Shown here: piece after piece, positions 1-61,415 of the stretch
Numbering within the stretch: position 1 is the stretch's first letter
Layout of the letters: each line of letters begins with the position of its first letter
Assembly (NCBI GenBank): GCA_963965975.1
Contig: OZ014418.1
Location: 632,501-696,500 of the forward strand
Source: Xestospongia bergquistia
Lineage: Eukaryota; Porifera; Demospongiae; Haplosclerida; Petrosiidae
Reading direction: 5' to 3'
DNA: 64,000 bases
The notes under the pieces: model-generated
What the model saw: the letters and a program-made list of their open reading frames with translations, nothing else
Databases searched by the model: none
What the model was told of the DNA's origin: nothing
Position numbers and translations under genes: made by a program

Positions 1-2500
1 AGACGTTGTTCACACAAATTTGCTAATTGAGCAACAGCAGTTTGCAAAGAACCCATTGTTGATCTCATACGAGTGAGAAAGTTTTGTAAGTACCACTGGA
101 AGAGTTTTCTTCTTGGTAGAAAATGTGGCAATAACAACGACAAGAGATACCAACTTTGTAGAATACAGAAATTTTCTAAGTTAGGAGGACCTGATATTTG
201 TCTTAACATTTGACAGTATAGTTCATCACGTAGTTCAGGGTGTGTGAGACATTTGTTAGCTAACTGCTGGACAGAATGTATGTGATAATCAAGACAGAGA
301 GGATCAAATTGTGTTGTGATGAAGAGATGTACAGTCTGAGGATAAGAAAATTTTTAAAGTTATATAAATATCATATGATCATCATTTACTTTAAACATTT
401 GGATAGCTTCTGTACCAAGAGCAGCTGAAGATATAAGTGGTTCATGAATCGTTTCTTTTGTGTAATTTAGTACAGGATTACACTACAGGGCAGACGCTTT
501 AGGAGGAGAAAATATAATGTTACATTTCATTACATTTACAATACATGTACTTACATGTAGTGAGACCTTCTCGTTCAGTACGCCAAAGTCTGGCTACTAA
601 TTTCTCTGTCAGTGTGAGCTCAGGTCCTGTTTCACCACATGAAGCTGACACTAAGTGATAATACCATAAGTCCTGTGTGTGTGAGAGAGAGAGAGAGAGG
701 CGGGCACTGATTTATAACAGACACTATAATTACTAACCTTTTCATCTTTATTTGACAGAGATATTGAGATCCAGTCATCTCCGTCATTGAGTCCACTTCC
801 TCTTTCATTTCCAGCTCCTCCCATTTCGACAACAATAGTGAACTCCTCTTTGACTTGGCTAGAGAACAATGTTGAAGAGGAACGACCACGTTGATCTGGT
901 ACATCAACACTATGGCGTATCATAGCATCAACCAAAAGAAATTTCTGCATAGGCTCTGCATTAGGGTCTTGGTAGACCAGTAACGATTGATCAACAAGAG
1001 TAATCCACATTTTTTGAGGGACATGAGACAAAATTAAATTAAATTGATTATAATACTAACCACTTTAGCCCAACCAGCTGGTAAATCTTTAGTAGACGAT
1101 GATGATAAATTTATCTGACACATTCTCATAACAGTCTGTAACACTAGAGAATGAGTATATTAGAATATGTAATATATACACTATTATATTATATTATATT
1201 ATATTATATTATATTATATTATATTATTATTATATTATATTATATTATATTATATTATATTATTATTATATTATATTATATTATATTATATTATATTATA
1301 TTATATTAATTATATTATATTATATTATATTATATTATTATATTATATTATATTATATTATATTATATATTATATTATTATATTATATTATATTATATTA
1401 TATGTGACCATAAATACGAAAATGGTACCTAACGCACAAGCAAATTTCGAAGAAATGCTTGTTTAGAAACGGTTGCTACGCATTCATCTTCAACAGGAAA
1501 TCAATATAATTTGGTATTCATAAAGGTTAATCAGTGATCCTGTCGCATACTAAATATTAACAACTTCCTGTTTAAAATGGCTGCATAGCAACAGTTTATA
1601 TGCAAGTGTTCATTCAAAATTTGTTTGCACGTTAGGTACCATTTTCGCATTTATGGTCACATATTATATTATTATATTATATTATATTATATTATATTAT
1701 ATTATATTATATTATTATATTATATTATATTATATTATATTATATTATATTATATTATTATATTATATTATATTATATTATATTATATTATATTATTATT
1801 ATTAATGTATATACTGTCTCTATTGTACCTTTAATCCATTCTTCACAGTCAGCATTGCTATCGGCAACAAAATGATAGGTTCTGGTGGGTGTGGCCAGCT
1901 AATGAGGGAGAGCATGATATAGGAATGGTAATATTTCATTGAGTCTTACTTGAAAAGAACTTGTCATTTCATGTCGAGTTATTTTACACCAAGCAGCAAG
2001 ATTGATCACGCCCTTTGCTCTGCAGTTAGGACTTTTCTACATTAAACATAAACAGATCAAATGTCAAATTGAATTGGTCTTTTCTGACATACTTTTGAGA
2101 AATATTTTAACTCCTTTCCTTTGAGAACAAACCAGCGTCTTGTCCAGTGTTTCAAACAAGGACCCAACTTGTGCGAGTAACCTTGTTTCTCACATAAAAT
2201 CTGATGTAGGAAAATCACTCAATCTTAACATTTTTAATTGTAATATGATGTAATATGTTGTGTATGACATAAATATGATGTAATGTTAATACGTGATGTA
2301 ATATATTGTAATATGATGTAATATTATGTAATCATACACTGTTTCATGATGCACCAGGTAAAGTAGTTGTGTATTTATGATCACGACTGGAATCTGGAGG
2401 TACAGATGGATCATGTTGTACAGGCTCTACATAACCTAATGAGGCGTCTGGTGGTATCACATAATCATCACTATCAGAGTCTGAACTAACACTAGAATCT
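1..2500 (-). CDS. PLEKHH/MAX-1-like PH-PH-MyTH4 protein (partial, 3' end off window)
   Basis: Spliced minus-strand gene read through short exons. An acidic Ser/Asp linker (about 2500-2350) is followed by a PH domain (about 2210-1830; GYSHKLGPCLKHWTRRWFVL then TRTYHFVADSNADCEEWI). A second PH-like segment lies at about 1139-740 (KMWITLVDQSLLVYQDPN). A MyTH4 domain follows at about 650-1 (NPVLNYTKETIHEPL, GTEAIQMF, LDYHIHSVQQLANKCL, HPELRDELYCQMLRQ). The order PH-PH-MyTH4 and the MyTH4 wording match the PLEKHH/MAX-1 family, which normally ends in a FERM domain; that part would lie before base 1. Family members are cytoskeleton- or membrane-associated adaptors without a myosin motor. Myosin-X-like proteins share PH-MyTH4-FERM, but no motor is visible here. 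The 5' end is unresolved: exon phases between the linker and the first PH exon do not join cleanly. The largest intron holds the 1.4-1.8 kb repeat block. Confidence 0.72.
1172..1402. repeat. (ATATT)n microsatellite, left half
   Basis: Long run of the 5-mer ATATT with occasional ATT slips, inside an intron of the PLEKHH-like gene. It resumes at 1662 on the other side of a MITE-like insertion. Confidence 0.95.
1403..1661. mobile_element. MITE-like foldback element inserted in (ATATT)n
   Basis: The ends are inverted copies: TGTGACCATAAATACGAAAA at 1403 and its complement, with one change, ending at 1661 (CATTTATGGTCACA). The inverted similarity runs imperfectly for roughly 100 bp inward (GTTGCTACGCA/GTTGCTATGCA, then AACAGGAA). 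TA flanks both ends (1401-1402, 1662-1663), as expected for a TA target duplication. There is no coding capacity. This is the build of a non-autonomous DNA transposon of Tc1/mariner-type target preference; the family assignment is inferred. Confidence 0.8.
1662..1804. repeat. (ATATT)n microsatellite, right half
   Basis: Continuation of the ATATT array interrupted by the 1403-1661 element. A 69-residue Ile/Tyr/Leu frame through it is repeat-derived, not a gene. Confidence 0.95.
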
Positions 2501-2727
2501 AGATGAATGGATGAATGAATGGATAAATGGATGTATACTTCATACCTGCTTTCTGCTGTTGTTATGATGAGATTGGATAATGGACATAACACTAACAACC
2601 ATGAATACAGCTTGTACTCGACAAGCCCCTCCCTACAATATCAATGAAATATGAATATTGTTGTTTGTGGGTGTGCATTACTCTCACGCCTTACGGCAAC
2701 TAAAGGTCGGCGAACACAGAAACAGTT

Positions 2728-5700
2728 ATGGCAAAGAAACAAGTTGATGCAAAGCTATTAATATCCTTTCTGAGTCAGGTTCAACTAGGTAAGTAGATAG
2801 TTAATTGTCTTCTTTACTATTAAGTATGAGGATTGACTGTCTGAGTCTTTATTGAGTATTTTAGTGCTGTTTGAGTACTTTTAATTTTTAATTTGTTTCT
2901 TAGATATCACTCATTTAAGTGATGTATTAGAAGTCTTGAACATGTTTCCATATCAAAGATGGTTCAAGTTAGGTCTGTTGTTGGGTATACTACAGCCTAC
3001 ACTAGCAAAGATCGAAATAGATCATCGTAATGATGTAGGTCGATGTCTTCAGGAGTGCATGACTTGTTGGTTGAGAAGAGTTGACAAAGTAGATGAGAGG
3101 GGAAGACCATCATGGGATGTACTAGCTAGTGCTTTGAAGAAGATGGAAGAAAATTATGTGGCTGAAAATATCACTCAAACAGGTATGATATGATCTTAGG
3201 ATTATGATATTTATGATTTATTTATTAGTGGAGGAACAAATCCAGTCTGCTGGACAAGTTCTGATATATCCTGCACAAATGTCACAGCTGTTATATAGTG
3301 AGAGATGCATCAATGAAGTGACCCTTGATGAGGTGGAGACACTAGAGGGCATGGTTGACAATAAGAGAAAAACCCTCTTGTCCGCTGTACGTAATACAGT
3401 GTCTTCTGATCTCAAGAATATCAAAGTGCTAGCTAAAGTGTTGTCTGAATTTGAAGAGACAAGAGAATTAGCTGATAAACTACTCAATGAATATGGTAAG
3501 TTATCAGTTGTTAATTAAAGATGACATTTCTCTCATTAATTGTGTAGCTCAAAAGTTTCCAGAAGATGACGACATTTCAACAATTCCTCAAAATACATGT
3601 AGTTATCAACAATCTGCTAGTGATATTCTTCGTTGTCACTATGGTACTTTGTCCAAGTCTCTAGATGATCCTAGTAGAGTTGGATGGCTACTTTGTGAAC
3701 AAGATCCAATGATAATATCAGAAGAAACACTTACTAGTGTTGAGTTTATAAGGAAATGTGAGTCAGAGAAAAGGGTAGTCTTGTTGAGAGCTGTACGTTG
3801 TGCTGTTCGTAGTAATTCAAATAACTTGGAAATATTTATTAATGTGTTATTAAAGTTCTCTGAGAATGTGTTAGTAGCTAAAGCTATTCAGAGTGACTAC
3901 AGTAAGTAATTGAATTACATTAATGAAATATTAAAAACTTATGTCCATAGATAAAGAGATTGAAATAAAAAAGAAAGATGAAGAACCTTCAACAGATGAT
4001 GGTATAATCAATATAACATAATAGTTATAACAGATATAGGAGGGCTACATTATTTGATACTCACCTTAAGATGAGGTGGATCAGTCCTCTTAGATTTGTT
4101 ATCATGTATTATAATGAGTGACTAGCATAAAAACTATTATATGTGAATATTATTATAGTAACCAATATTCATAGTCCATCCACCCACTCAATAAAAATTT
4201 ATAATTCAAGTACATAATTTGTGAAATTTTGTACCACATTTAGTTACAACAGAAGTATTGGTACCTTTGGATATGGCACCAACATTTACATCAATCAGAG
4301 GAGAGTTTGCAAAAGCTGTTTTCAATATCCGTCTTTGTATTAATAAGAGCCAAGCATCTGTAAAACAAGTTAAAACCTTACTTAATGGTTTCCCTGAACT
4401 AAAGCCAGAGTTATCTAATGCAGAAACAATGGATGATATATTGGATATTGTACGTGACAAATGTACACTGATTAATATTAATTATTTAGAAGTTGTTGTG
4501 GACCAGTTTAACATTGAAGATGCTAAGGCATACATCAAAAGTTACAAGAATATTGTTGAAAAGTTCTCTGATGAAGTATCAGTTGAACTGTGTCTTGGTA
4601 AGCATTTCCACATGGCACAAATACCCTCTTGTCTGAAATGTGAGACAGCTAAATTTGTTCTCGACTGGAACCCAGACAACACCACTTTGAATGATATTCG
4701 TGATATTTTAGCTGTCTCATTAAAGAAATTAGCCAAGTCTGTAAAAATAGATGTCATCAAAAAAAGCAACTCCATCACTGTAATATGCATTTTTCCTCTC
4801 CATCTACTTGGACGACTCATTACCATTGCTCAAGAGACTGTTGAGGTTGTAAAGAAAAAAGGATTAATTCAACTCTCTATTGGCCCTTGTATTATTTGGG
4901 ATATCAACATTAGAGATCAGGTATATATATAAATTTACACTACAACAGTATCCATGTGTTGTTGATATAGGAGATGAAATCTTTGGCAATGGAGATAAAA
5001 GAGAAGCAAACACACTTTGAGAAGCAGTTGGAGACACAGTATGCAATTAGCAGGAGAAAGACCGTGGAAATTGAAGATTTGAGAGCTAAACTCAAACAGC
5101 AGGAAGGTAACAGGACTATAATTGTAAAAATCACACAGTAAGACATTGACTATGAAAAGCTTGCATAAGATATCCAGAGGCTAGCAACAAAGAAGAAAAC
5201 TATACTCTATCTGAGTTAAGAAGAGCTACCCAGACATGTAAATAACTTTGCCATTTTACGTGCTATCCACATGGGTCTTGTACCAATCAATTCAGCTTGT
5301 AAATGCCCATTTTATATATAAAATTCGGCTTTCTAGTGCTACGAGAAAGTAGCAAACTATAAAACTCCATACAATTTCAATGACATACCTTTGACATACT
5401 TAAAATTTTGCACCTTCGAGGATTTAAAGATAACATTTTTTGCCTTGAGAAGTCAGCCGTCTCTCATGTGGCAATTCAAAATTACAGTTCTAATTATATG
5501 AACAGATGTTCTATTATAACAATTATTATTAAAGTAATAACCAAGTATTGTCTTTTGTGATTTAAGGCAACTATAAAGACACCAAGGTTCTGAAAAAACC
5601 TTTTAACAAAGAAGGAAGACTGATAATGCCTGATAGAGGTAGTAGATTTTCATCTGATGGCTTCACGATCAAAATCATAAACTAACAGGTGTCATTTCAG

Positions 5701-8647
5701 AGATCTTTGAGTCTGTTTAAGCTTGCTGAGTTCTTTGAATAGTCATAGATATTTGTAACAACCTCCTTTGTTTATGATCTCAGTCTCTTTCCCTTTGCGA
5801 TCTTCATGAACATGAGAGAAAACGTGGTGTGTTCACATGCCACCCACGTGAACAAATAATGAATAAAATTAAAATGTACTTGAGCGCTAATTGCATATAA
5901 TAGGAGAGGAAATACCTCACCTTACATTGCATGCATAAAACCCCCTTTTCTTAATGAAGGGCTCTTTTATACTCAGACAGACTGTAGTTAGAAGCCTCCA
6001 ACTCTGACAAGTCACACGACCATTAATATAATGCTTGTATGCATAATAGAGGATCTTAATCATTGAGTGTACATATGTAGTTTGAATATATGTAGTTAAT
6101 AATTTGTTGTTTTAAATTGTCACATTCAACAATATAAGCTGATAATATAGTAATGTATATATATTACTATATAGCTCTAAATAACTGTAGGATTGTTTAC
6201 ATGTCAGGTAGTAAAGGTATTAATGTTTATTGTTATATTGTAATTGTTACATTATAATGTTTTGTATTATTAGCTGATAAAGTGGAGTTCAAGTCAGAGA
6301 AACAAATGTCAGAATTGATGGAGAAAGACAAGGAGATTAATGCATTAAAATTAACCCTTAAAGAAAAAGAAAGTAAGGAAACATGAATTGTCTTTGACTA
6401 ATACTACATAGTGTAAACATGTACATATGTACTTAGACCACACCTATAGTACATAATGTTGTCAAAGAATATAATATTTTAATTTTAATATTTCTTATAA
6501 ATGGAAATAGAATCTGATGACATTGAATTATGTGAGCCAATTGTTATGCAGTCATCATTTTCCAATATAAAGGATCCTATTGAACATGAACCAGTGTATC
6601 ATATGGAAACTTTTTACACTAGTAGTAGTGGTTTAAAACGAAAAGGTGATCATAATTTGGAAGATGAAAAACCATCAAAGAAACAATGTGAGTATAAATA
6701 CATAAGATATTCTTAAGATAATATAATTAGCATATACTGTGAAAGTCTATTTTATCTTGTTATATTTAATTATATTTTTTGTCAAGGTTTAACAATTTAG
6801 GGTTTAGGTTCAGAAATTCAGAGTTTGGTTAATACTTCACATACTAAGCAATGACTCATTGTTTTATGATTGCTTATCAATTGTTGTATCTAGAGTTTGT
6901 TCTATAAACAAACTCAACTTACATAGCAACAACTAGTTTACAGTCAGGCTACATATATATCTCTCTATAGTGAAATTTCTTTTCACTGACAGCTTATAAT
7001 AATCATCACTGTATTATATGTGTATATTTTATTAGTACTAGGACACAGTATGGACAGAGAAGGACCACAAGATCAATCATCAACTGACACTTTATCAGGT
7101 ACATGTACATTAATTGAGATATAACTATGTACCTAATGTAAACAGAGAAGCTGAAACTATCAGAGAAAATGAATAAGGCAAAGACGTTAGAGATAGATGA
7201 GTTAACCAGACATAAAGAAGGTGAGCTAAAATACTGATAGTAGTACATACCATATATGGTTATGTTCTATAGCTACTGATAAAGTGTTAGTAGAGAAACA
7301 AGAAAAGATTGAGGCATTACAAATGGAACTAAAATCACTAAATGTAGAAGTAATGGAGAGAGAAGAAAGTGGAATCAGTCAGTTAATGGAGAAGATTAAA
7401 GGTAAGTAAAATAGAAAATGTTATTACGGAAGCTGAAGGCAGACATCCAATTCTACTTTGTAATATCATATTCTGCTTTGAAGTTTTCTGAAAATATTCA
7501 ATTTTACTTTACAGTTTTATCCTAAAATTCCAATTCTATTTTCTATCCTTCAATGGAATATTAAACAACTAAAATCCTATACCCCACCCTAACTGGAAAC
7601 ATATCCTTTCACTCCATTCTAAGAGACAGCTCATAGTGCTTGCACTCTGCGCTTCACTTCAGTGAGACTTCATTGAGCAATGGAAAATAGAATTGGAATT
7701 GGATGTCTGCCTTCAGCTTACCTATGTTATGACATACAAAGTTATATACAATTATTCTAAATAGAATTCATTTAGCATTTTAATTATCATTAATATAATT
7801 ATTGTAGATCCAAGAATTATTGACATAAAATTGAAGAAGACAATGTCATTAGAAGTTAGTCAGTTAAAATCTACACAGAAAGGTGAGAACTTAACAGATA
7901 TTATTAACATTTCATGCTCCTTCCATTTATTGTCTTTTCTCATTATGTGCTCCTGTTGTTATATATAATTATTATGTTTAAATCTAATATAAATATACAT
8001 GTGCTGTACATGTGCTTTGTATTATATAGAATTACAGAAGGAGCTACAATCATTACAAGAGATAATAACATCTCTTACTTTACAACTAAGAGAGAAAGAA
8101 GAAAGAAATGTTCATTTAACAGAGAACATAAAAGGTATATTAACAACATGTATAGTTCTTTACTTTATCTATTGTAGATCTGAGGTCTAGGATATTAGAG
8201 GTGAGAGATCTCCTTAAAACTAGTCATCCACTTCTAAGTCAAAAACTTGAGGAACCACTTGCTAGCAAACAAGAAGGTATATGTACACCTGTTCTTTATA
8301 TAACTTATCTACTCCTGTACATTCTTTATCACTTCATATTTCAGACATAGAAGCATATGAGTTGGTTGACAAGATGAAAACACTAGAGGACCTCACATCT
8401 ACTGTCCAAGAAAGAGAAGGTATTATATAACTACTCAAAATGTACAACATCTTATATTGTGTATTGTGTAGCTACTGACAGACAACAAGAGATTACAAAA
8501 TTACAGGAGATGATTAGTTCACTAACTCTTCAATTGACAGAGAAAGATAAAATCATTACTCAGTTAACATCAATAGATACAGATAAGGAGGACAGCCAAG
8601 AGGAATCATCAGATGATGAAGAACTACCAAGTAAGCTGCCATTATAA
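2728..8647 (+). CDS. Gene A: Death-domain / CARD-like / coiled-coil protein
   Basis: Start chosen at MAKKQVDAKLLISF (2728), whose donor joins in phase to the exon at 2904. Residues about 20-115 (2904-3182) form a Death domain: YQRWFKLGLLLGIL, RNDVGRCLQECMTCWLRR, RPSWDVLASALKKM, ENYVAENI. Exons 3229-3495 and 3548-3900 encode two helical segments resembling each other and Death-fold/CARD domains (RKTLLSAVRNTV and KRVVLLRAVRCAV at matching positions). The exon at 4244-4919 encodes an unrecognised module of about 220 residues, also present in gene B. From 4971 on come many small exons (for example 6274-6371, 7146-7220, 7272-7402, 7808-7882, 8030-8133, 8178-8278, 8345-8420, 8471-8647) encoding Glu/Lys/Leu-rich coiled coil. 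Introns are 45 nt to a few hundred nt, nearly all phase 1. The protein ends in an acidic EESSDDEELP tail, but a GTAAGC donor just before the stop leaves room for more exons. A role in Death-fold signalling is inferred only from domain type. Confidence 0.75.
7428..7722. mobile_element. MITE-like element with terminal inverted repeats in gene A intron
   Basis: Left end AAGCTGAAGGCAGACATCCA (from about 7430) and right end TGGATGTCTGCCTTCAGCTT (to about 7719) are reverse complements over about 26 bp. The element is about 290 bp, non-coding, and lies in the intron after the exon ending in KIKG. A copy occupies the same intron of gene B (53359-53659). Confidence 0.75.
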
Positions 8648-8745
8648 CTTTAGTAATATTTAAAACATGTCATTAAACTACAATGTATATATGGTACAGT
8701 ATGTAGTGGTTTGTAGTACACTCTTATAACATATGATAACTCATT

Positions 8746-8776
8746 AATTTCACATACAACAACTGTATGTGAAATT
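8746..8776. repeat. Perfect 13-bp inverted repeat, 5-nt loop, downstream of gene A
   Basis: AATTTCACATACA, loop ACAAC, then TGTATGTGAAATT: a perfect hairpin about 100 bp past the stop codon. The same hairpin is at 54686-54716 after gene B. Function unknown; a 3'-end structure is possible. Confidence 0.75.
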
Positions 8777-8874
8777 TATTACATAAAGTCTATTTCATTA
8801 GTTGCTTTCATCATCACTACCTGTTGTTAATATTGAGTAAGAATGAGTAATGGATTCATCATTGATGACTCAGT

Positions 8875-9074
8875 NNNNNNNNNNNNNNNNNNNNNNNNNN
8901 NNNNNNNNNNNNNNNNNNNNNNNNNNNNNNNNNNNNNNNNNNNNNNNNNNNNNNNNNNNNNNNNNNNNNNNNNNNNNNNNNNNNNNNNNNNNNNNNNNNN
9001 NNNNNNNNNNNNNNNNNNNNNNNNNNNNNNNNNNNNNNNNNNNNNNNNNNNNNNNNNNNNNNNNNNNNNNNNNN
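8875..9074. other. Assembly gap, exactly 200 N
   Basis: 200 unknown bases, the same length as the second gap, so probably a placeholder. It swallows the 3' end of MTIF2, which needs over 1 kb of coding sequence, so the real distance must be much larger than 200 bp or the flanking contigs are not truly adjacent. Confidence 0.97.
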
Positions 9075-9727: not shown

Positions 9728-11434
9728 ATGGCTGGCAGGCTGTTGTTTCTAACAAGAAGAGCAGGTAACAGTTATCAGTTATGTCTCAACAGATTATGTT
9801 GCAAGAAGGTAAAAGAATTTCTCTATACCCAAATGAGTGCATTTTTCCCTATAGCAACTGCATTATACAATACCAGTACTATCAGATGAGGTTAGTCCAC
9901 GAGGTCCTCCTTATACAACTGATCTAACACAGGCCAGTTCACCAGATAAGAATCTTCATCTACGACCAATATATCGTATACTGAATAATGAAGGGATAGT
10001 ACTTGACTCCACCCAAGACCCAAATGTATTCAAATATTATAATATAATTATGTCATGTACTTCAATAGGAAATTAGTACTAGATCTATTGTTAATGATTA
10101 TTGTTAATAGACATACTCAGATATAAACTGTTTTTCTTTCTAGCTTGATAAAGATCTTCTGTTACAAATGTACTCCAAAATGCTGACATTGCAGTTAATG
10201 GATCAATATCTTTATAGAGCACAGAGAATGGTACATATTATGTACATACAATTAACCATACCCATTCTGTTTCCATGACAACAGGGTCTCATATCATTTT
10301 ATATGATGAATTATGGAGAGGAAGGTACACATTTTGGAACAGCAGCTGCGCTGGATTCGGAAGACGTGGTATATGCCCAATATCGTGAAGCAGGTGTCCT
10401 CATGTGGCGAGGATTTACCCTCGATGACATGATGAATCAATGTTTCTCAAACAATTTGGATAAAGGCCGTGGACGTCAAATGCCAGTCCATTATGGAAGT
10501 AAAGAACATAATTTTCATTTTATCTCATCTCCTTTGGCTACTCAAATACCACAAGGTTAGCTATTTCCTCAGTACATTGTACTCCTCTCGTGTTCACGTA
10601 CTTCATTCTAGCACCTGGATATGCGTATGGCATGAAAATAGCTGGTTCCAAAAACTGCGTCATTGTCTATTTTGGAGATGGGGCGGCTCAGGAAGGAGAC
10701 TGTCATGCTGCAATGAATTTTGCTGCCACCTTAAAATGTCCTGTCATTTTCCTCTGTCGTAACAATGGGTATGCTATATCTACTCCTGTTGAAGATCAAT
10801 ATGCAGGAGATGGAATTGTCGATCGTGGGATAGGCTATGGTATGGAAGCCATTCGAGTTGATGGCAATGATGTATTGGCGATGTACAATGCTACAAAACA
10901 CGCTAAACAGGTTTGTGTTGAGGAAGGAAGACCAGTACTTATTGAAGCTATGACATATAGGTATTTAACCCTTTAAGACACTTAATAATATTTAACTCCT
11001 TTATTTCAGACTCGGAAGTCACAGTACTAGTGACGATCAGAGCTTATATCAAGATATGGATGCAGTAGAGTACTGGAAAAACAACCTATATCCTGTTACT
11101 CGTCTTAAACTTTATCTCGTCAACAAAGGATGGCTGGAAGAGGAAAAGACGGAGGAACTAGTGAAATCTATAGACGAAGATATTAAGGTACATCCTGTAC
11201 TACTACATGATTGAGTAACATATTACATTATATTGTTCTGGTTGTCTCTAGGCTTCGTTTCAACAAGCTAGGAAAATTAAGAAACCTCCTATTAATGATA
11301 TGTTTAGTGATGTTTATGACACTTTGTCTCCTCGTTTGAGACAACAACGTCAAGAATTGTGGGATCATTTAAAAGAGTATGGTCACCATTATCCAATGAA
11401 AGATTATGAACCTTCTTCAGATAGCAATGTATGA
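9728..11434 (+). CDS. BCKDHA: Branched-chain 2-oxo acid dehydrogenase E1 alpha subunit, mitochondrial
   Basis: Thiamine-diphosphate-dependent E1 alpha of the mitochondrial complex that oxidatively decarboxylates the keto acids of leucine, isoleucine and valine. Start [15 protein letters not shown] looks like a targeting peptide. Visible family blocks are [55 protein letters not shown], and [19 protein letters not shown], a His-rich catalytic loop. The ThDP/Mg motif begins at [19 protein letters not shown] and ends in [11 protein letters not shown]. The phosphorylation-loop region reads [11 protein letters not shown], with the regulatory serines conserved. About 440 residues in several exons, normal for the family. 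Ends at 11434, 66 bp before the YIF1 start on the same strand. Confidence 0.96.
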
Positions 11435-24864: not shown

Positions 24865-26708
24865 ATGGCTCATTGGTTTCATCGTAATCCTCTCAAAGCC
24901 ACTCAGCCACTCAAATTTGAAGCTTTAAAAAAGGCAGCCAAAGGATCTAAATGCGACGAATTGCTCACGTGAGTCAAACCTTTGTTATTGGAGACCCAAT
25001 CATCTTGGTCATTTTCCTGCAGAAAACTACGTGCAACTAGACAAAGGTTAATAGAACTGTTTGGTAATCCAGAAAATTCAGTTGATGACATCACTGTTGT
25101 CTTTACAGAGTATGTGGGATTAATACGTGGGTTAGTTGATGCCCCCACAGGAGGGGACAGTAAATTACGCACATTGACTCCATTTAAGTGGACCAACTCA
25201 TTAGGTGGGCGTGTCCCAAGGTATGCCTAATATGGTGTGATAATAGTGAGTTAATGAACTCTTTTTTTAGCATTCATTCAGACGCCATGTTTGAATTGAT
25301 TGCCGTGGTGATGAACATGGCAATTTGGCACTCAAAACATGCAATGCAAGTAGCATCCACAGACAGTATCACAATGGAGGAAGCTAAAGAGGTTCATCGT
25401 AGTCTCAAGATTTCAGCGGGAATGTTCCTTAATATCAAAGAGGTACTTCTAACTCGACTTCCAGCCTCACCTGAAAAAGGAGTTGACACAGACCCACGCG
25501 TTATTGAGGCATACGCTCAACAGTCTCAAGCTGAAGCACAAGAAGGTTGGTTCCTATGTTTTCATGTTTACATTAACTCATTCTCCTAATATAGTAACAT
25601 TGGCTAGAGCATTAGAACTTGGACACAAACCAGCTATTGTATTTTCTTTAGCAGCTGAGACTTCTAGTTTATTTAATTTAGCAGGTAATTAACTCATTTA
25701 TTAACTGGGGTAATAATCTTTGTTCGTTTAGCTAATGCTCTCAAGACCCTTGATCCAGCTCAGTTTGGTAAATGGACTACATATTTACAACTCAAAGGAG
25801 CATTTTATGAATCTTATGTAAGTAAAAAAACCCTGACATTATTAATAATGGACACTTGGGGACCTTGAAACCTGTACAGTAATACAGTAATTGATTATTA
25901 ATATAGGTTATATACTGTTTACGAGGTTTATATGCGTATTTATAAACTCGAGGAAACCTATATAGCAACCGAGCGCGAAGCGCGAGGTTGCTATGGGTTT
26001 CCAAGGGTTTATAAATACGCATATAAACCGAATAAACAGTATCTAAGGTATTTATTAAATAAAAAAGCTCACAATAGCAACTAGCCTAGATACAGTGCGT
26101 CCATAGCAACTAGCCTAGAAACATTGCGTCTCCAGAATTAACAATTTCAGAATTAAGAATGGAAGTTTCTTTGACGACATTTTCTCAGATTTGAACACGT
26201 GTTGCCCCCTCCCCACGACGACTACTTCTACTACAAGATACGCCCTTCCCAAATCCGACGAAGATGTTGTCCGTGCAAGAGAAAGTTCTGTGCCAGTGTC
26301 AACGAAACACGACACCAACTACTGCTTAAAAACATATTTTATATTTTATTTCATATTTTATCATTATTTGAATAAAATTATCAACAACTACTGATAATTA
26401 CATTATCTCCCGCCGGACTACCCGGTAGGTATCATAAGTGAGCCCGGACTGCCCGGTAGGTATTATAAGTAAAATAATGAACCCGTAATTCTGCAATTTG
26501 ATTGGTCTATTCTAATTATGTATATAATAATTATTATTATTACTATGGTACTATAGGAGTTTTGGCATATGCTAAATAAAAATGCTGTTTTTCTTTAGTC
26601 TTATTGCTTCTTTGGTAAAGAATTACTTGAACAAGAGAAATGTGGGGAATCAATAAGAATATTACAACACAGTCAATTCTGTAAGTAAAATGACTTGTTA
26701 TTATTATT

Positions 26709-26780
<72 letters not shown>

Positions 26781-26784
26781 GATA

Positions 26785-26827
<43 letters not shown>

Positions 26828-27373
26828 GATATATTATTATTTAGTGAGTGAGTGTGCTACAAAATTATGTGCAAGATATGCCAAAACAAAGGGTCCTGGT
26901 AGTATTGCTAGACCAGAACATCACCCTTTCTTTCAGAAATTAGCTCCGATGGTCAAACTTCATTTAGACAAAAGCGAAAGAGAAAATGGTTTCATGTAAA
27001 GAAGTCTTTATAAATGTCCACTATAACAGCTGCTCTTTTCTCTTCGATAGATATTATCAAAAAGTTCCTGATGAATTACCTGAAATCCCAAAGAAAGAAG
27101 TGTTTGGTCTAGCAACACCAGAAGACTTCACTCTTCCACCTCATCATCAACTCTGGACAGAAGAGGTCTACGCTGCATTTGAAGTTGCTGAAGGGCAACA
27201 AGAAGGAACAAAATATGATTCTACAGTAAGTTATACTAAATATAATTTAAAACTCTCTCTTTCTCTCTCAGTCTGCTGCTAGTCATGAAGAAATAGCACC
27301 TGTTCCAGAGCCCAATATTGCTCCAGCCAAACCTCCTCAACCACAGACTAGTTCTGGCTGTACCATTCAATAA
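24865..27373 (+). CDS. BROX: BRO1-domain and CAAX-motif protein BROX
   Basis: Start MAHWFHRNPLKATQPLKFEA, as in vertebrate BROX. BRO1 blocks follow: KLRATRQRLIELFGNPENS, LTPFKWTNSLGG, SDAMFELIAVVMNMAIWHS, AAETSSLFNLA, FYESYSYCFFGKELL, KLCARYAKTKGPG and ERENGFIYYQKVPDELPEIP. The C-terminus SSGCTIQ is a CAAX-type prenylation site, the hallmark that separates BROX from ALIX and HD-PTP. About 420 residues. BROX binds ESCRT-III CHMP proteins and acts at membranes, including the nuclear envelope. One intron (25819-26599) is far longer than the others and is filled with repeats (see 25911-26472). Stop is 183 bp from that of convergent PAXX. Confidence 0.95.
25911..26042. repeat. Long foldback palindrome in BROX intron
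   Basis: Arms of about 62 nt: ATACTGTTTACGAGGTTTAT... and its complement ending ...ATAAACCGAATAAACAGTAT. Both contain TATGCGTATTTATAAAC and the inner GAGCGCG/CGCGAG. The loop is only a few bases. MITE or foldback element; no ORF. Confidence 0.8.
26073..26134. repeat. Two-copy direct repeat
   Basis: ATAGCAACTAGCCTAGAT/AACA...GCGTC occurs twice in tandem (about 26073 and 26103). Adjacent to the foldback; possibly part of one larger element. Confidence 0.65.
26410..26472. repeat. GC-rich two-copy direct repeat
   Basis: CGGACTACCCGGTAGGTAT and CGGACTGCCCGGTAGGTAT, each followed by CATAAGT/TATAAGT, about 30 bp apart. ACCCGGT/ACCGGGT-like dyads inside. No gene. Confidence 0.65.
26697..26842. repeat. 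(ATT)n/(ATC)n microsatellite
   Basis: Runs of TTA and TCA triplets in a BROX intron. The poly-Met/Ile frame through it is repeat-derived. Confidence 0.95.
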
Positions 27374-48969: not shown

Positions 48970-50177
48970 ATTAGTTTACCCGCGACAATCATGGCATTGA
49001 AATCCTGGAGTGCCTCTTGCAATGCACCTATACTATAGTTACAGGAAGACGTCTTTCTACAACCTCCTATCACAGTAAAACTTCTCATTGAGTGGACTAT
49101 TATTAGTAAACAAACACCTCAGTGTTGTTCATTTCTAAGTACACACTATGTAGTTGTCTCATGTATTGGGATATATGGCTATAGACAGGAAATGTTTCTA
49201 TCAGAAATTCATTAAATGGGTGTTGTGATTACAGATGACCATGAATAATAAGTACATGACACTACAATTAGCAAAGGCTGCAAGGTTGAAGCCACACCTA
49301 CAACCACAATCAATTACTATGATCCAACTAAATTTCTAACCAAGAAGCAGTACATTAACATTAAAAATACAGCTGTTTACAAGCTGTTTGATGATGCTCA
49401 CATATTTAAAGACAACATCAAATCGATAGGATTTGCTAGCAGCACTTCTAACTCTTTATAAATGAGCCAATGGAAATATACACATTATCAAATTATGTTT
49501 ATTATGGTGTCTCTGTCTCTGTAATTATTGTAACCTCCTGCTATTTTTAGTGCTTGTAAACAATTGATTTTTAGCCTATATGTAACCTTATATTAATATA
49601 CTAATACTTACCATGTTAGGAGACAAAAGAATAAAAACAATTTAAATACAAAGAAGTGTAGTTTTAACATAACACTCAAAGGGATGATTATTCAAACATA
49701 AGATAGTTATTGACATACAGCTTGTTAAATGAATAAATAAATGAATTATTGTTTTAATAGCTTATATAAGACATTTATTAAATGTAACATTATATAACAT
49801 TATTATTATTAATGACTATTAATAGTTATTAAGCAGAATGACATTGTCTCAGAGAGATGGGTGGAGCTTTCAAACTCTGGAACAATGCATAGAAGTTTCA
49901 ACTAGAATACTAGGTGAAAATTAAGTTCAATTTGTCACATTTTGTTCAAAAAGTCACTGAAAAAAAGAGAGGGAAAAGAAAGGTAATTATGATAATTCAT
50001 TGTTATTATCACTAGCTGTTTTTTATATATGTATGTGTAATTAAGTAGTTTTTTCACTTTCAGTGCTGTAGGTTTTTTGGTTAGCATGTAAAAATATCGT
50101 GTTTTATATTATTCATAGCTGTCAAAATAGGGTGGGGCAATTCAAATTTACGAGCCCCACCCTTCTTTGTGACCACA
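48965..50177. other. Gene-poor interval with one exon-like open frame
   Basis: Mostly AT-rich. At about 49261-49460 (+) an open frame without an ATG reads TISKGCKVEATPTTTINYYD then PTKFLTKKQYINIKNTAVYK and LFDDAHIFKDNIKSIGFASS, to a stop. It follows a plausible acceptor (TGTGATTACAG), but an in-frame stop lies just upstream. Family unknown; it may be a remnant exon. Nothing else supportable. Confidence 0.4.
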
Positions 50178-53100
50178 ATGGATGACTCACTCGAAAGCTA
50201 CAGGAAAGCCGTTATTGATACCTTTAATTCTCAATATGCCAACCTCAGTTCAGCTCTACAAGGATGTATGACAAAATTTACTGAGGAAGCATTTGCCGTT
50301 AAGCTGATATCTGAGTCTGTTATGAGAAGTGAGAATTTTGCTGACATAGCTAACGAATTTAAAACTGGATTGAAGTTGAGGAAGACAGTAGAGGAAATAC
50401 AGACACATTGTCATTGTCTTGTTAGAATTCTTGAGGATCTTGGTGGACCAGCAGCAATTGTTGGTAGTAATCTTGCTACAGAGCTGTCAACATTAACTGC
50501 ACAGTATCGTGGTATGTCACGTTAGAATGGAATAATTAAGTGTACCTTTAATTGGAGATTATGTTTAGGAATTAGGAACTTGTGCAAAAAATTTGAAAAT
50601 TCCATTGTTATGGAACTAAACAAGCTTTAGTTATAATGTCATAGTTAACACTAGTATTATTTAGTCTCATTCCCAGACTGTATACCCCCTTAGGGAGACT
50701 TGCTTCAAATTCTTGGTCCTAGTGTCATTAGCATGATGTGAGTGATCATATGACCTTGAGAAAAAATGTGTGATTAGTATATAACAGACTACCTTTTATC
50801 TGGTGCATATGGCAGTCTAGGGATGATATTATAAGTCAATTCTATTGTTATATTAACATTACTTTAATTAACACTGTATAAATTGATCTGTTAATTTTAA
50901 CAACCAACTAATAGTTTACATAAGTGGTTACTATGGAATCTATAATTAATATAAACTACTCATTTATTATATAATTTGTTGTTATGTTATTATAAAGTAA
51001 CTAGTTAAAGTAATAATATTAATTTTCATAATGTTCATGAACTTAACTTTCACATTTTAATTATCTATACTAATNNNNNNNNNNNNNNNNNNNNNNNNNN
51101 NNNNNNNNNNNNNNNNNNNNNNNNNNNNNNNNNNNNNNNNNNNNNNNNNNNNNNNNNNNNNNNNNNNNNNNNNNNNNNNNNNNNNNNNNNNNNNNNNNNN
51201 NNNNNNNNNNNNNNNNNNNNNNNNNNNNNNNNNNNNNNNNNNNNNNNNNNNNNNNNNNNNNNNNNNNNNNNNNNGAGAATCACACAAATAGTTAAATAAT
51301 CATCATATTATGAGATATTAATCAGTTCTAGTATCATTATAAATCATTTAAAGTACTGATATATTATCATGTTATACACTATATATTGTAATTAGGGTGT
51401 GTCTTAATGGTCATAGCTTTGCCTAGTGAGATATTGACCCCACCCATTATTATACAATGATACCTCTTGTATAACTAGTAAATATGCTAATTTAAATAAG
51501 AATTATATATTAAAGATTTCTTATATTGTCTTTAGTATAATATTATTGTAATGTCTCTTTAATTACATTAGATCTTTCCAGTCTATTCAGTCAGTATGGT
51601 CTATCATATGAAGAAGTAGATAAAGAGTGTGATGATGGAGTTTTCATTGAGGTCTCACAACATATGAATGATGACTATATAACAGCTGGTCATTGTCTTG
51701 GTTTATCAACTGAAAAAGTGTGTCACATTTCACAAAGTGATAAAAATGATGTACAAAAGAAGAATGAGTTGTTGTGGACATGGAAAAGGAAAAATGGGAG
51801 TGGAGCTACTTCCAAAGAATTGGTGAAAGCTTTCTTGAAAATGGAAGATCGATTCATAGCTGAATCTATATTAAGATATCTTTCTAAGAAATTTAAATCA
51901 GATTTAAGTCCAAGTGGTTGTATTCTTAATCCACAAAAGGCTAAAAAGAATTGGGAAGAATTAACACCAAGTGAAAAGGAAGCAGTGCGAAATAAGCTGA
52001 TGGATGAAAATCATGATGTACGTAAAGCATACACTGTTTTTGTTGCCCAACTAGTACATTCTTTTAAAGAGCGCAAAGTGGACCCAATGGATATTCAGTG
52101 GGTGGCAAATAGCTTTGGTCCTTTAGAAAGCAGGCAAAAAAACACCACCATCTTCAATTTTAGTAAAGATGACAGTATTGCTGCTGTTTTTTCAGAGTTA
52201 ACCAGGTATTGTACGTGGTTTAACTATGAGATGCTTCAAGTTATCCTTGATATTTTGGGCAACAATTGTGAGAAACAGTACTTAAAGTTATATGAAGAGG
52301 AGCATCTCATCCCATACTTAACTCGCTCCATTTTTGACATACCATGTACTCCATTACAAGACTCTCAACTTACTAGTGTTCTTCTTAAAGTGTCTGCAGA
52401 TCTTGTCATAACTGGAGGAGAAGTAAAAGCTATTCAACGTAACCTTGCCAAATTACTGGGTTTTCAAAGTAGTGCTATCTTACACTTCCATAATTACAAT
52501 GAAGGTTGTATTGAATTAGTATTTAGTCTTCCTACAGTAGTATTGGAGAATAGCTCTCCTAAATCCAAGCTGTTCACTTACATTGAATGGGACAAGTCAA
52601 GTCAATCTTACAAAGTTAATGTTGATCTAGTGACTGTATTGTAAGTATTATTTTAAATATATTCTCACTTTATGACCATATTTCAGAACATATTGTGAGA
52701 AACCAGAAGTATCTCTACTTGTTAAGTTGCTGCATGAAAAAGAGGATGCTCTTAATGAACTTTTAGAGAGAGAAAAGACAAAACAATGTTAGTTATTTTA
52801 TATGTATATATTCTGACTGATACTACATTGTGTTATCAATTACATACATAACTACTAGTTGGCCATCAAGTTATCATATTATATTCTAAACTCTGTATGA
52901 TTACTTTCACTGACAGCTAATAATAATAATCAGCACTCACTGTATTATATGTGTATATTTTATTAGTACTAGGATGCAGTTTGGACAGAGAAGGATCACA
53001 AGATCAATCATCAACTGACACTTTATCAGGTACATGTACATTAATGGAGATATAACTATGTACCTAATGTAAACAGAGAAGCTGAAACTATCAGAGAAAA

Positions 53101-54585
53101 TGAGTAAGGCAAAGACCTTAGAGATAGAGGAGTTAACCAGACATAAAGAAGGTGAGCTAAAATACTGATAGTAGTACATACCATATATGGTTATGTTCTA
53201 TAGCTACTGGTAAAGTGTTAGTAGAGAAACAAGAAAAGATTGAGGCATTACAAATGGAAATAAAATCACTAAATATAGAAGTAATGGAGAGAGAAGAAAG
53301 TGAAATCAGTCAGTTAATGGAGAAGATTAAAGGTAAGTAAAATAGAAAATGTTATTACGGAAGCTGAAGGCGGACATCCAATTCTACTTTGTAATATCAT
53401 ATTCTGCTTTGAAGTTTTTCGAAAATATTTAATTTTACTTTACAGTTTTATCCTAAAATTCCAATTCAAATTCTACTTTCTATCCTTCAATGGAATATTT
53501 AACAACTAAAATCCTATACCTCACCCTAACTGGAAACATATCCTTTCACTCCATTCTAAGATACGGCTCATAGTGCTTGCACTCTGCGCTTCAGTTCAGT
53601 GAGACTTCATTGAGCAATGGAAAATAGAATTGGAATTGGATATCTGCCTTCAGCTTACCTATGTTATGACACACAAAGCTATATATAATTGTTCTAAATA
53701 GAATTCATTTAGCATTTTAATTATCATTAATATAAATTATTGTAGATCCAAGAATTATTGACATAAAATTGAAGAAGACAATGTCATTAGAAGTTAGTCA
53801 GTTAAAATCTACACAGAAAGGTGAGAACTTAACAGATATTATTAACATTTCATGTTCCTTCCATTTATTGTCTTTTCTCATTATGTGCTCCTGTTATTAT
53901 ATATAATTATTATGTTTAAATCTAATATTAATATACATGTGCTGTACATGTGCTTTGTATTATATAGAATTACAGAAGGAGCTACAATCATTACAAGAGA
54001 TAATAACATCTCTTACTTTACAACTAAGAGAGAAAGAAGAAAGAAATGTTCATTTAACAGAGAACATAAAAGGTATATTAACAACATGTATAGTTCTTTA
54101 CTTTATCTATTGTAGATCTGAGGTCTAGGATATTAGAGGTGAGAGATCTCCTTAAAACTAGTCATCCACTTCTAAGTCAAAAACTTGAGGAACCACTTGC
54201 TAGCAAACAAGAAGGTATATGTACACCTGTTCTTTATATAACTTATCTACTCCTGTACATTCTTTATCACTTCATATTTCAGACATAGAAGCATATGAGT
54301 TGGTTGACAAGATGAAAACACTAGAGGACCTCACATCTACTGTCCAAGAAAGAGAAGGTATTATATAACTACTCAAAATGTACGACATCTTATATTGTGT
54401 ATTGTGTAGCTACTGACAGACAACAAGAGATTACAAAATTACAGGAGATGATTAGTTCACTAACTCTTCAATTGACAGAGAAAGATAAAATCATTACTCA
54501 GTTAACATCAAAAGATACAGATGAGGAGGAAAGCCAAGAGGAATCATCAGATGATGAAGAACTACCAAGTAAGCTGTTATTATAA
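50178..54585 (+). CDS. Gene B: Death-domain / coiled-coil protein, paralogue of gene A
   Basis: Start MDDSLESYRKAVIDTFNSQY. The first exon (to about 50511) is an all-helical domain resembling Death-fold/CARD segments (KLISESVMRSENFADIANEF). Across the 200-N gap an exon at about 51571-52642 follows. It encodes a Death domain (DDYITAGHCLGLSTEKVCHI, ELLWTWKRKNGSGATSKELV, RFIAESILRYLSKKF) and the same unrecognised module as in gene A (NPQKAKKNWEELTPSEKEAV ... TYIEWDKSSQSYKVNVDLV). Short exons with coiled coil follow (YCEKPEVSLLVKLLHEKEDA). From 52907 they are almost identical to gene A: for example QKELQSLQEIITSLTLQLRE and RQQEITKLQEMISSLTLQLT. The end has EESSDDEELPS. A GTAAGC donor in that last exon is in phase 1 and could splice to the LRR exon at 56263. 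Domain order differs from gene A: a helical domain precedes Death here, but two follow Death there. Confidence 0.72.
51075..51274. other. Assembly gap, exactly 200 N, inside gene B intron
   Basis: Separates the first exon of gene B from its Death-domain exon. Further exons could be hidden here. Confidence 0.97.
53359..53659. mobile_element. MITE-like element, same insertion as 7428-7722
   Basis: Ends AAGCTGAAGGCGGACATCCA and TGGATATCTGCCTTCAGCTT are inverted repeats. It sits in the same intron position as in gene A, so it was present before the duplication. Confidence 0.75.
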
Positions 54586-54685
54586 CTTTAGTAATATTTA
54601 AAACATGTCATTAAACTATACAATGTATATATGGTACAGTATGTAGTGGTTTGTAGCACACTCTTACAACATATGATAACTCATT

Positions 54686-54716
54686 AATTTCACATACAAC
54701 AACTGTATGTGAAATT
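54686..54716. repeat. Perfect 13-bp inverted repeat downstream of gene B
   Basis: Same hairpin as 8746-8776 (AATTTCACATACA / TGTATGTGAAATT). Confidence 0.75.
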
Positions 54717-54997
54717 TATTACATCAAGTCTATTTCATTAGTTGCTTTCATCACCACTACCTGTTGTCAATATTGAGTAAGAATGAATAATAGATTCATG
54801 ACTCAGTAACATAAAAATACAACTATCAAATATTTCTCACTAATCTATAATAGATCTCTATGATAATATCTGTCATAATAGTACTTACACATGTACCAAT
54901 TAATGTAGTCCAAGTTATTGTTTACTTCAAGATACTTTCACAGCTTGAGTATAATATACCTAGGATATTATACTTAGATTCCTGTACCTCATCTTTA

Positions 54998-56149: not shown

Positions 56150-56825
56150 ATGGCGTCATCTTCTTTGTTAGGCCTTGACAATCGTATTTGAGCATGTTAG
56201 AGTGTGTGTATAACTATTGTTGTGTATGTAAAATATTATATAGTAACTATATTTTATTATAGGAGACACTGGAAGTGTTAAGTGGGAGAGTGATAGAGTT
56301 ATACTTACTTCATCTACTGTGGCAGAATGTAAAGAAGTGATACATCAATTAAAGAGACGACAACATACAACATGGAGTATTGAACTCTACAGATTATCTC
56401 CTCAAAGTTTACTAACACTATTAACTGATATTAATGAATGTAAAGTGAGGGTACTTGAGATATGGAACACTCATTTTGATAGTAACTGTATCAGTCAACT
56501 ATTACAAGTAATAACTTATAACAAAACAATGGAGTACCTACATCTTTGGTCCTCACCTCTCTTACCAAATACTTACCAATTACTAACAACAGCTCTAACT
56601 AATAATACAATAATCAAGGTATTAGTCTTGTGGGATGATCCTAACATTACTGATAATGATATACCACATTTCTCTCATTTAATTAATAAAAATAATACAT
56701 TACAATCACTATATCTCTATGACTGTACTAATATTACTAAATTTGGTATACAACAATTACAAAATGTTGTTGTTAATAATAATAGTTTGAATGTATTGTT
56801 TGTTAATGGTAATACACTCCGTTAA
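56150..56825 (+). CDS. Leucine-rich-repeat protein or LRR exon (NLR-type LRRs)
   Basis: Main exon 56263-56825 encodes about 187 residues. TVAECKEVIHQLKRRQHTTW and SIELYRLSPQSLLTLLTDI are followed by ribonuclease-inhibitor-like repeats: VLEIWNTHFDSNCISQLLQV, MEYLHLWSSPLLPNTYQLLT, VLVLWDDPNITDNDIPHFSH, LQSLYLYDCTNITKFGIQQL and LNVLFVNGNTLR. As a free gene, exon 1 would be MASSSLLGLDN (56150-56183) with a weak GTATTT donor, joining in phase 1. Alternatively this is the last exon of gene B, whose final donor is also phase 1. Such LRRs occur in NLR and related receptors; no NACHT or kinase domain is seen nearby. Stop at 56825. Confidence 0.7.
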
Positions 56826-59265: not shown

Positions 59266-59331
59266 CAATTATTATTATCATTATCATTATTATTATTATT
59301 ATCATTATTATTATTATTATTTTTTTTTTTA

Positions 59332-59395
<64 letters not shown>

Positions 59396-59400
59396 TTTAT
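59266..59400. repeat. (ATT)n array, left of retrotransposon
   Basis: ATT triplets with some ATC and a T tract. Same motif and strand as the array at 61338-61414. Confidence 0.95.
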
Positions 59401-61337
59401 AAGTTCAATTGTTCTCATATGATACCATCCTCCGATGGTAACTGAATGGGTACTCTTGAGGCCCACATACCGGCATTGCCTCGCCATAAGGTGATGGACA
59501 GCCGTTGGAACAAATGGGAGATGGAGTGAGAGAGGGGCAAACCGAGACGATGGGCTCGAAGCTTTCCAACTTCTTTAATTACATTAGCAGCTTCCCTGCT
59601 CCAGCCCCCAAATGACTCAACCACCAATGGGATGAAGGAGATTCCAGCTTGATGGCAATCGTTATCATGCAAGCGACGTTTACGCTCCTCTGCCACAGAA
59701 ATAGCATAACCTTGAGTGACAGCAGCATTATTGATGGTAAGTTGCTGGACAGGCAAGACTACAGTAACATCAAGAGCAGCAGAACGACCACGTTTCCAAC
59801 AAGGGAGAAAAACATCAGCAGGGCGACTACTGGAACCAGGAACAAGGGAGGGGACTTCTTTCTTAGGGGCCAAGGCAGCAGACTGTGCAGCAGAAAAAAT
59901 GACATCACGCAGGTTGTCATGCCGACGAATCATGTCCCCATTACCTCTACAGGTAACAAGGTGATCACCCATACTGTCAGCCTCTGTGTCACAAACTGGA
60001 CAAGAGGAACCTTCCTCGACCATCTGCAAGCCAAGCCAATACCTAAGGCAGGAACGAAACTCCCAATCTACTAGGTGTAGGCCAAGAGCAGAACAAGGCA
60101 CAACATTCAACCAGTCACCTGCATGGCGGATAGAGGAAGACAAAGCAAGAGCCCTGGAGCGAATATCTGGGGCCTCCTGAAGGAAAGATTCAAATCTGGC
60201 TTGGTCAATTATTCTACTGAGATGGTGCTGATGAACTGGAACATCTATATCCTCAATAGAAGACCAATCAGAACGATCAACAGCTGATGTCAGAAGGAGC
60301 AGTGCATCATTGGTATGAGGAGGTGGGGGTGGACTTCGATCCAAGATCTCAGCAACAAGATGGGCAGATTTCGAAACAGAACTGATGAATGCGGCTGAGG
60401 CATGAGAGGTTGCCAAACGAAAACCCAGTCCGCCAAATGAGACTGGAAGAGTTGCTTTTTTCCAAGCCCAATCTGGCAGCGGAGCTCCAACAATCTCAGA
60501 AACAGAATCATACAAAGCTCTGTCAAGATTCTGAATAGCATCCTCAATGAAGGAGGGGGGACATGTGCGCAAGATAAAAACAAACTTGGGGAGAGACAAA
60601 CAGGAGCGTAACAAGACATATTCCATCTGTGAATCATCCAACTCAGGCAGTAGGTCTAGTGCACTTTGAATCTTTTCTACTCTCTTGCAGGCCTGTGAGG
60701 AACAGAATGTAGTTGAACCAACTGGGGCACCCAAAAGCACAAAACCATCTCTAGCAATTGGAATATCAGAGGGGAGAAGGTTCTCAGACAAATCAGCATC
60801 TGCAGGAACAAACAACAAAGATTTAACTCGGTTGAGTTGGAGACCTCTCGCAGGACCATCTTCTTCAATGATGCGTAAGGCCTTTAACAGATCCTCACTA
60901 GAGCCACAAAGAGTTCCATCATCTAGATACCAGGCATTCATCTGTAGGCCAGGCACCTCCTCCGCTATTCTCTCAACAATGGGGTGAAGGGCCAGAGCAA
61001 AGCAGAGGGGACCCAAAGGGTCACCTTGCTGTACACCACAACAACTCTTTATGGTACGCTTACCAAGGTGAAGAATGGGCTGAGAGCCATAACAGCACTC
61101 TGTCCATGCAGCCATAGAAGGAATACGAGCTCGTACTTCTTCAAACATACAGTGACGATCAATTGAATTGAAGGCATTACAAAAATCAACTTGCAAGACC
61201 CATTTACACCTTAAAGGAATGGTATCATCACCTAAAATAGTGTTAACCGAATGAACAATAGCTTCACAACCAACTGGGACTCCAACACCAACTTGTAAGG
61301 GAGAAAGAACCCGCACTGCTTCAAGAGATACAACTGC
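59401..61337 (-). mobile_element. 5'-truncated non-LTR retrotransposon inserted in (ATT)n
   Basis: A single retrotransposon body flanked on both sides by the same-strand (ATT)n array. On the element's own strand the target is (TAA)n. Only about 15-20 bp lie between the ORF stop and the repeat. The 5' side enters the reading frame directly from the repeat, so the N-terminus and 5' UTR are lost. No poly(A) tail other than the AAT repeat. The restriction-like endonuclease and TAA-repeat target recall the R4/Dong group; the clade is inferred. Confidence 0.85.
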
Positions 61338-61378
61338 AATTATTATTATTATCATTATTATTATTATTATTATTATTA

Positions 61379-61382: not shown

Positions 61383-61414
<32 letters not shown>
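61338..61414. repeat. (ATT)n array, right of retrotransposon
   Basis: ATT/ATC triplets continuing the array found at 59266-59400. Confidence 0.95.

Positions 61415-61415
<1 letters not shown>

Follow-up and report, generated by a model that had tools for sequence, protein, structure and literature searches.

Near-identical tails and the gene family that carries them

The stretch of Xestospongia bergquistia DNA analysed here (the window, 64,000 nucleotides, C8:632501-696500) holds two plus-strand copies of a tail made of eight coiled-coil-like exons, T1-T8. Copy 1 (6981..8874) comprises these exons and part of the 3' flank and is truncated by a 200-N assembly gap (8875..9074); copy 2 lies at 52905..54816. 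By BLASTN, copy 1 (6981-8859) and copy 2 (52905-54799) were 96.8% identical over 1895 columns, and when 6981-8874 was aligned globally to 52905-54816, the two agreed at 1840 of 1894 aligned bases, with 18 gap columns. The shared tail has a sharp left edge (6981/52905), and its eight exons have AG/GT borders in each copy, the introns being part of the shared block. The near-identical, collinear blocks through eight exons, introns and a MITE that had been described in the original prediction are therefore real. Their continuation into the 3' flank was borne out for the part of the flank present in copy 1, but the right edge of the block is the contig end at the gap and not a biological edge.

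The eight exons amount to 259 codons free of stops, in which the two copies differ by 12 amino acids. Introns are as alike as exons, with 9 substitutions in 517 intron positions (MITE excluded) and 14 in 777 exon positions, the exon borders being approximate. The third tail intron contains a MITE-like element (7425..7724) with 34-nt inverted arms (7425-7458 and 7691-7724); among the 15 loci of this family (family A) that were examined, matches to it were present only in g1, g2, t699, t712, t719 and t797. As a separate observation, several comparisons with the tails of family-A loci on C3 (7098-8177) showed introns more alike than adjacent exons; copy 1 and the C3_9.834 tail, for instance, differed at 0/46 positions in intron 1 and 0/43 in intron 5, but at 11/49 in exon T1 and 8/77 in T2.

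We searched the whole genome (146.5 Mb, 21 contigs); all loci compared come from one assembly. A Death-domain search gave at least 150 matches (the best 150 of 983 candidates were scored), and a tail search at least 93 (the best 40 of 501 candidates were scored). At least six near-full tail copies lie on C8, at 639k (copy 1), 685k (copy 2), 699k, 712k, 719k and 797k (minus strand), and, among the matches listed, more distant copies occur on four other contigs, C1, C3, C4 and C7. The copy-1 tail differs by 2.2-4.6% from the five other MITE-bearing tails. Thus, the two Death-domain genes of the original prediction do share a near-identical tail, but as a pair they are not special. By eye, a head of the copy-2 type stands directly upstream of 16 of the first 26 tail places and is missing from ten, including copy 1; this latter number is an upper bound, because the head search scored the best 40 of 54 candidates. 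One of the ten, L026, has a family-A N-terminal exon nearby (C3:6292716), and its head may have escaped the search.

The copy-2 gene starts with an N-terminal exon (50085..50525, +) that, by sequence matches, marks family-A genes; it was also found upstream of the family-A genes at C8:699k, 712k, 719k, 797k and 872k. Its head exon (51541..52644, +) is an open frame with a Death domain (PF00531, E 1.9e-10), a DED-like helical block and an alpha/beta block, as assigned by the Pfam match, a predicted structure (pLDDT 84.5) and structure matches. Within the head exon, windowed identity delimits a swapped block (51890..52380, +, residues ~118-276): in 100-bp windows it is 57-77% identical to other family-A heads, vs 83-100% in the three preceding windows and 93-100% in the following ones, and its nearest relative is in a different protein group. 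In this respect copy 2 is typical of a group of genes that were duplicated whole, its head being 96-98% alike to theirs over 1.4 kb; dS values for the heads of copy 2, 699k, 712k and 719k are 0.016-0.049. Uniform identity across the whole gene, which the original prediction held to be incompatible with its proposal, is not found between copies 1 and 2; it does roughly hold when copy 2 is compared with these three duplicates (699k, 712k and 719k).

The last exon of copy 2 (56247..56825, +) is LRR-like and, by its matches and by a tree, common to family A and to a second family, B. It matches LRRs of ribonuclease inhibitor and NLRP proteins (best E 1.3e-4) and has at least 40 copies (the best 40 of 181 candidates were scored). 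Its phase and its position downstream of ten genes on C8 suggest that it is spliced to T8. The layout of family A is thus an N-terminal exon, a Death domain, a DED-like block, an alpha/beta block, coiled-coil exons and an LRR-like exon; the family is expanding and forms a young cluster on C8. The head protein P0029 equals the 872k head over 329 residues, P0033 equals the 797k head over 330 residues, and P0001 matches the 719k head at 384 of 395 residues; these three proteins perhaps come from one contig of another assembly of the same species.

A second 200-N gap (51075-51274) lies directly upstream of the copy-2 head exon, so that both gaps in question (8875-9074 and 51075-51274) adjoin family-A genes; recent family-A copies probably broke the assembly at these places. 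Directly after the copy-1 gap, exons at 9855-10560 (+) encode what we take by eye to be a branched-chain alpha-keto acid dehydrogenase E1 alpha-like protein. Related simple tandem repeats occur at three sites of the window (26695-26843, 59268-59401 and 61339-61415).

A family-B head between two pieces of a family-A gene

The upstream halves of the two genes had been regarded as those of strongly diverged paralogues, but at the DNA level the heads belong to two different gene families. A diverged family-A head was ruled out for copy 1, the DNA of the copy-2 head having no match in window 1-8874. We also rejected the reading of copy 1 as an allele of copy 2 or as its duplicate from the other haplotype, given the different upstream DNA and the unique segment S (below).

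What stands upstream of the copy-1 tail is an insert of 6540 bp (C8:632353-638892) with family-A fragments on either side. It consists of about 35 bp of filler, then a segment copied at C8:435275-437427(-), then a family-B head. The left family-A fragment (C8:630.1-632.352k) includes the N-terminal exon (C8:630202-630633) and the first part of the Death exon, in which it is 97% identical to copy 2, and ends at the equivalent of window 51824. The whole family-A 5' piece differs by 5-8% from the array genes, and its Death-exon remnant by 3% from copy 2. Since family-A fragments flank both the B head and the segment from a neighbouring gene, a family-A gene was split and lost about 1 kb to the incoming DNA; since family-A sequence lies on both sides of the foreign head, it was the head that came to the tail. 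The proposal that a young tail had been placed behind an unrelated head was therefore correct in outline but reversed in direction.

The first foreign segment (1..2577) is part of a minus-strand gene, with a PH-like stretch recognised by eye, whose other copy lies at C8:435-437 kb. The search covered 1-1150 and 1820-2577, the part between them (1151-1819) being simple repeat. Window 1-1150 has a single other match in the genome, C8:436136-437314(-), at 92%; 1820-2577 matches C8:435275-436049(-) at 93%, and the stretch immediately left of the window matches C8:437305-437427(-) at 99%. By eye, a long TATTA-type repeat (1156-1812) is interrupted by a stretch of about 250 bp with inverted-repeat-like ends.

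The second foreign segment (2578..6392, +) is the head of a family-B Death-domain gene, with predicted exons 1-8 and an ATG at 2728. We placed its left border at the start of B homology (2577 for the copy on C1, 2634 for B456). It shows about 80-95% DNA identity to six B loci (C8:446k, 456k, 592k, 606k, C1:13.756M and C3:5.765M) and 78% to two further loci at C3:9.81-9.82M. Compared with B456, the B part extends over 608 codons without a stop or an exon indel, at dS 0.068 and dN/dS 0.46. The closest copies of the two insert parts appear to lie at C8:435-437k and 446-459k, though the exact source is ambiguous: the introns of the copy-1 B head are nearer B446 (3.7%) than B456 (6.9%), whereas its exons are nearer B456 (dS 0.068 vs 0.150). 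Towards its right end, B homology covers positions 4200-5202 and 5985-6392, and the jump from 5202 to 5985 is filled by a transposon-like multicopy insertion of about 790 bp in a B intron (5200..5985) with many genome matches at 79-87%. The ends of this element look imperfectly inverted by eye; a repeat finder reported no such inversion.

The fusion point of B and A (6392..6393, +) lies within an intron of both parents, as determined by aligning five B and three A members: B homology stopped at 6392 in all five B members, and family-A sequence followed from 6393. The sequence shared at the junction is at most about 3 nt, judged by eye. The A side begins with segment S (6393..6980, +), an intron followed by a predicted exon (6511-6687, phase 1-1) that carries a basic patch, KRK...KPSKK. 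By its matches to A genes, which begin at 6395, segment S is 83% identical to C8:872537-873158 and 78% to C3:5472195-5472769, both of which are joined to the same tail. The copy-1 sequence stands alone among 12 matches, since the closest of the others reaches 83%. We also considered the possibility that the B tail is a form of the A tail; this was ruled out, a comparison of the A tail with two B loci giving one 44-base match.

The predicted chimera has 17 exons and 960 codons without a stop, with GT-AG at all 16 introns; its splice sites were predicted from sequence and comparison. Exons 8-17 are all of phase 1-1, and all junctions have phase 1 apart from exon 6/7 (phase 0). The last B exon before the fusion is exon 8 (6274-6372) and the first A exon after it is exon 9 (6511-6687); as both parts were joined within introns whose neighbouring exons have phase 1, the chimera is in frame. 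Both parents are thus identified on either side of an intronic junction that keeps the frame, as in a chimera formed by segmental duplication and intronic recombination, and the inserted B head retains its introns, whereas a retrotransposed fusion would have lost them.

We propose that a family-A gene was split and that about 1 kb of it, reaching from mid-Death exon into the intron that precedes exon S, would have given way to 6.5 kb of DNA in which a fragment of a neighbouring gene is followed by the front of a family-B gene; both parts have close copies at C8:435-459 kb. The product would be a B head joined in frame to an A coiled-coil tail. The chimera is presumably transcribed and would end in an LRR exon, its 3' end being lost in the gap. 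The low divergence of the tail may owe something to gene conversion or crossing-over among the at least six tails.

Proposed exchange among tails and last exons

To assess recombination among the tails, we used our own scripts rather than published programs, following published ideas. These ideas are those of PHI and of Sawyer's runs. The six MITE-bearing tails have 46 biallelic informative sites, of which 533 of 1035 pairs were incompatible and clustered (p 0.0002, 5000 shuffles). Clustering persisted when sites were thinned to at least 10 or at least 20 bp (p 0.0004 and 0.001), and also without copy 1 (p 0.0005), so the signal is independent of that copy. Without 7725-7780, p rose to 0.007, and without both the MITE and 7725-7780 it was 0.59, with 203 of 351 pairs still incompatible. 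It is therefore the third intron, with its MITE, and the border of that intron that supply the spatially clustered signal. Among the four C3 tails, clustering of incompatibility was not significant (p 0.13).

Copy 1 itself has the look of a mosaic, like t719 at 7237-7489 (p 0.004) and like t797 at 7442-7657 (p 0.003). The longest concordant run between copies 1 and 2 is 7958-8446 (permutation p 0.043); the p values of runs are uncorrected, 15 pairs having been tested. Furthermore, the t797 tail resembles that of copy 2 (intron divergence 2.2%), yet the dS between their heads is 0.385. Tail exchange or conversion, as originally predicted, is thus supported by site conflicts among six loci, but it is not private to copies 1 and 2. 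What likely took place is partial exchange among tails, in a multi-locus network with one insertion, rather than a swap between two old paralogues.

The LRR-like exons were examined in a tree of 22 copies, one of them partial. Ten C8 copies, six from family A and four from family B, grouped at 94/95 without separation of A from B. Together with a B copy on C1 they grouped at 100/100, apart from the A copies on C1 and C3; with a C1 copy of family B among the C8 copies, chromosome alone does not explain the grouping. Monophyly of the five B copies was rejected at a p-AU of 0.007, which is only indicative because the groups were named after identities had been seen. The last exons thus suggest that A and B genes on C8 have exchanged DNA much as the tails have. 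One old transfer of an LRR end from B to the C8 family-A genes, followed by mixing, fits as well as continuous conversion.

Taken jointly, insertion into a duplicated family-A gene, an in-frame B/A chimera and exchange among tails at several loci form the account that we regard as probable. We considered the possibility that no conversion occurred and that the copy-1 tail simply belongs to a recent family-A duplicate that took the insert. The low tail divergence to copy 2, even across exons and introns, would agree with this, as would the dependence of the clustered signal on the third intron, the 3% difference of the Death-exon remnant from copy 2 and the 3.7% difference of the B introns from B446. 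Yet more than half of the informative site pairs are incompatible at a divergence of 2-5%, and the first insert segment (7-8%), the B introns (6.9% to B456) and the family-A 5' piece (5-8%) all exceed the tail introns (1.7-4.7%). Lost source copies could account for the higher divergence of the insert parts. We consider duplication without conversion unlikely.

It is slightly less likely still that copy 1 is an assembly artefact, namely a mis-joined or haplotype-derived contig end. Its block does end at a 200-N gap, with the other gap just before the copy-2 head exon, and none of the 40 LRR exons scored (of 181 candidates) is spare for copy 1. However, no N occurs from C8:630100 to the gap, which places the two junctions within a single contig. 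The lack of a close second match to segment S also argues against an artefact, and the divergence of the copy-1 tail from the five other MITE-bearing tails, together with its different head, indicates that it is not the copy-2 allele.

A swap or conversion between the tails of two old paralogues, as first suggested, is improbable. The concordant run at 7958-8446 and the equal divergence of exons and introns are in its favour, but the copy-1 head belongs to another family and stands between two pieces of an A gene, by which the two-gene form is already contradicted, and the stronger tracts link copy 1 to t719 and t797. As for the suggestion that conversion keeps the coiled coils identical in favour of hetero-oligomers, only the coiled-coil-like sequence itself speaks for it, and we give such selection hardly any credence: the introns are as alike as the exons and 12 of 259 tail residues differ, so nothing points to coiled-coil-preserving selection, and these 12 differences arose with 14 exon substitutions (nearly the same exon borders). 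Insertion with exchange at several loci accordingly remains our preferred reading.

Domain identity, known systems and significance

In the sponge Amphimedon, a large lineage-specific expansion of Death-like + TRADD-N proteins with many architectures is described (eLife 2021, PMC8195603). The family resembles it as there characterised, with N-terminal Death-like domain(s), an alpha/beta module and a variable C-terminus possibly with LRRs (PMC8195603). Here, a Death-superfamily domain is likewise N-terminal, and the last exon of copy 2 provides a variable C-terminus with LRRs, that of copy 1 being lost in the gap. In contrast to the retrotransposition proposed there for some fusions (PMC8195603), the present fusion is at the DNA level with introns kept; the alpha/beta block is a putative TRADD-N.

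This block is predicted in both heads, and no Foldseek match was found at E up to 0.001. Pfam TRADD-like_N matched one of 23 A members (E 0.08) and none of 15 B members. TRADD-N is not in the VIA list of structure matches, an absence that is no evidence against it, and the B-module model (pLDDT 65.8) was uninformative. An NCBIfam search and a PDB sequence search with the B module returned nothing informative. When the head alignments of the two families were compared as profiles, E was 0.00011 over 133 columns but the probability only 56%; the A and B middle modules may be very distant relatives.

The locus also recalls zebrafish NLR-B30.2 genes, for which exon shuffling has been proposed (Open Biol 2016, PMC4852459): according to that account, C-terminal exons are homogenised across N-terminally different groups, mainly within one chromosome. 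Those genes are described as NACHT + B30.2 (PMC4852459), whereas here coiled-coil-like and LRR-like exons are the shared parts, and neither the copy-1 frame of 960 codons (E 0.01) nor seven window exons (E 0.5) gave a NACHT match. Sponge NLRD of Dysidea avara similarly has a Death domain in front and LRRs at the back, but is described as Death-NACHT-LRR (PMC12909245), unlike the copy-1 frame and the window exons scanned. Among the literature titles listed, we found none naming such a sponge chimeric Death-domain locus.

By analogy with the Death-like/TRADD-N proteins as described for Amphimedon (PMC8195603), the products are likely cytosolic immune-type signalling proteins. In such a protein, the Death and DED-like domains would assemble, the coiled coil would oligomerise and the LRR-like exon would bind. 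The process is largely explained by known events, i.e. segmental duplication, intronic recombination and partial conversion, of which the locus is a good instance.

More tentatively, the cluster might be a combinatorial germline assembly line, a view that we hold as possible rather than probable. Phase-1 introns mostly lie between the heads of different Death-domain families, a swappable DED-like block, the coiled-coil tail and the LRR exon, and segmental insertion and conversion at the DNA level, without retrotransposition, would go on producing in-frame immune-type receptors with new head-tail pairs and homogenise back ends within a cluster and across families. Retrotransposition has been proposed as one source of fusions, from the neighbourhoods of the DEDD2 clade, and the published proposal for sponge Death-domain architectures leans partly on retrotransposons (PMC8195603); the present fusion is a DNA-level case. 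As its two parents and two flanks are identified and its introns are intact, it makes a DNA-level route of domain shuffling directly testable. Whole-sequence trees of such proteins mix histories, in that head, middle block, tail and LRR exon can differ in their nearest relatives. By gaining a new head, an old tail would keep its role in oligomerisation and binding but serve another signalling front, and the locus preserves well one case of the mixing of immune-type protein parts in animals.
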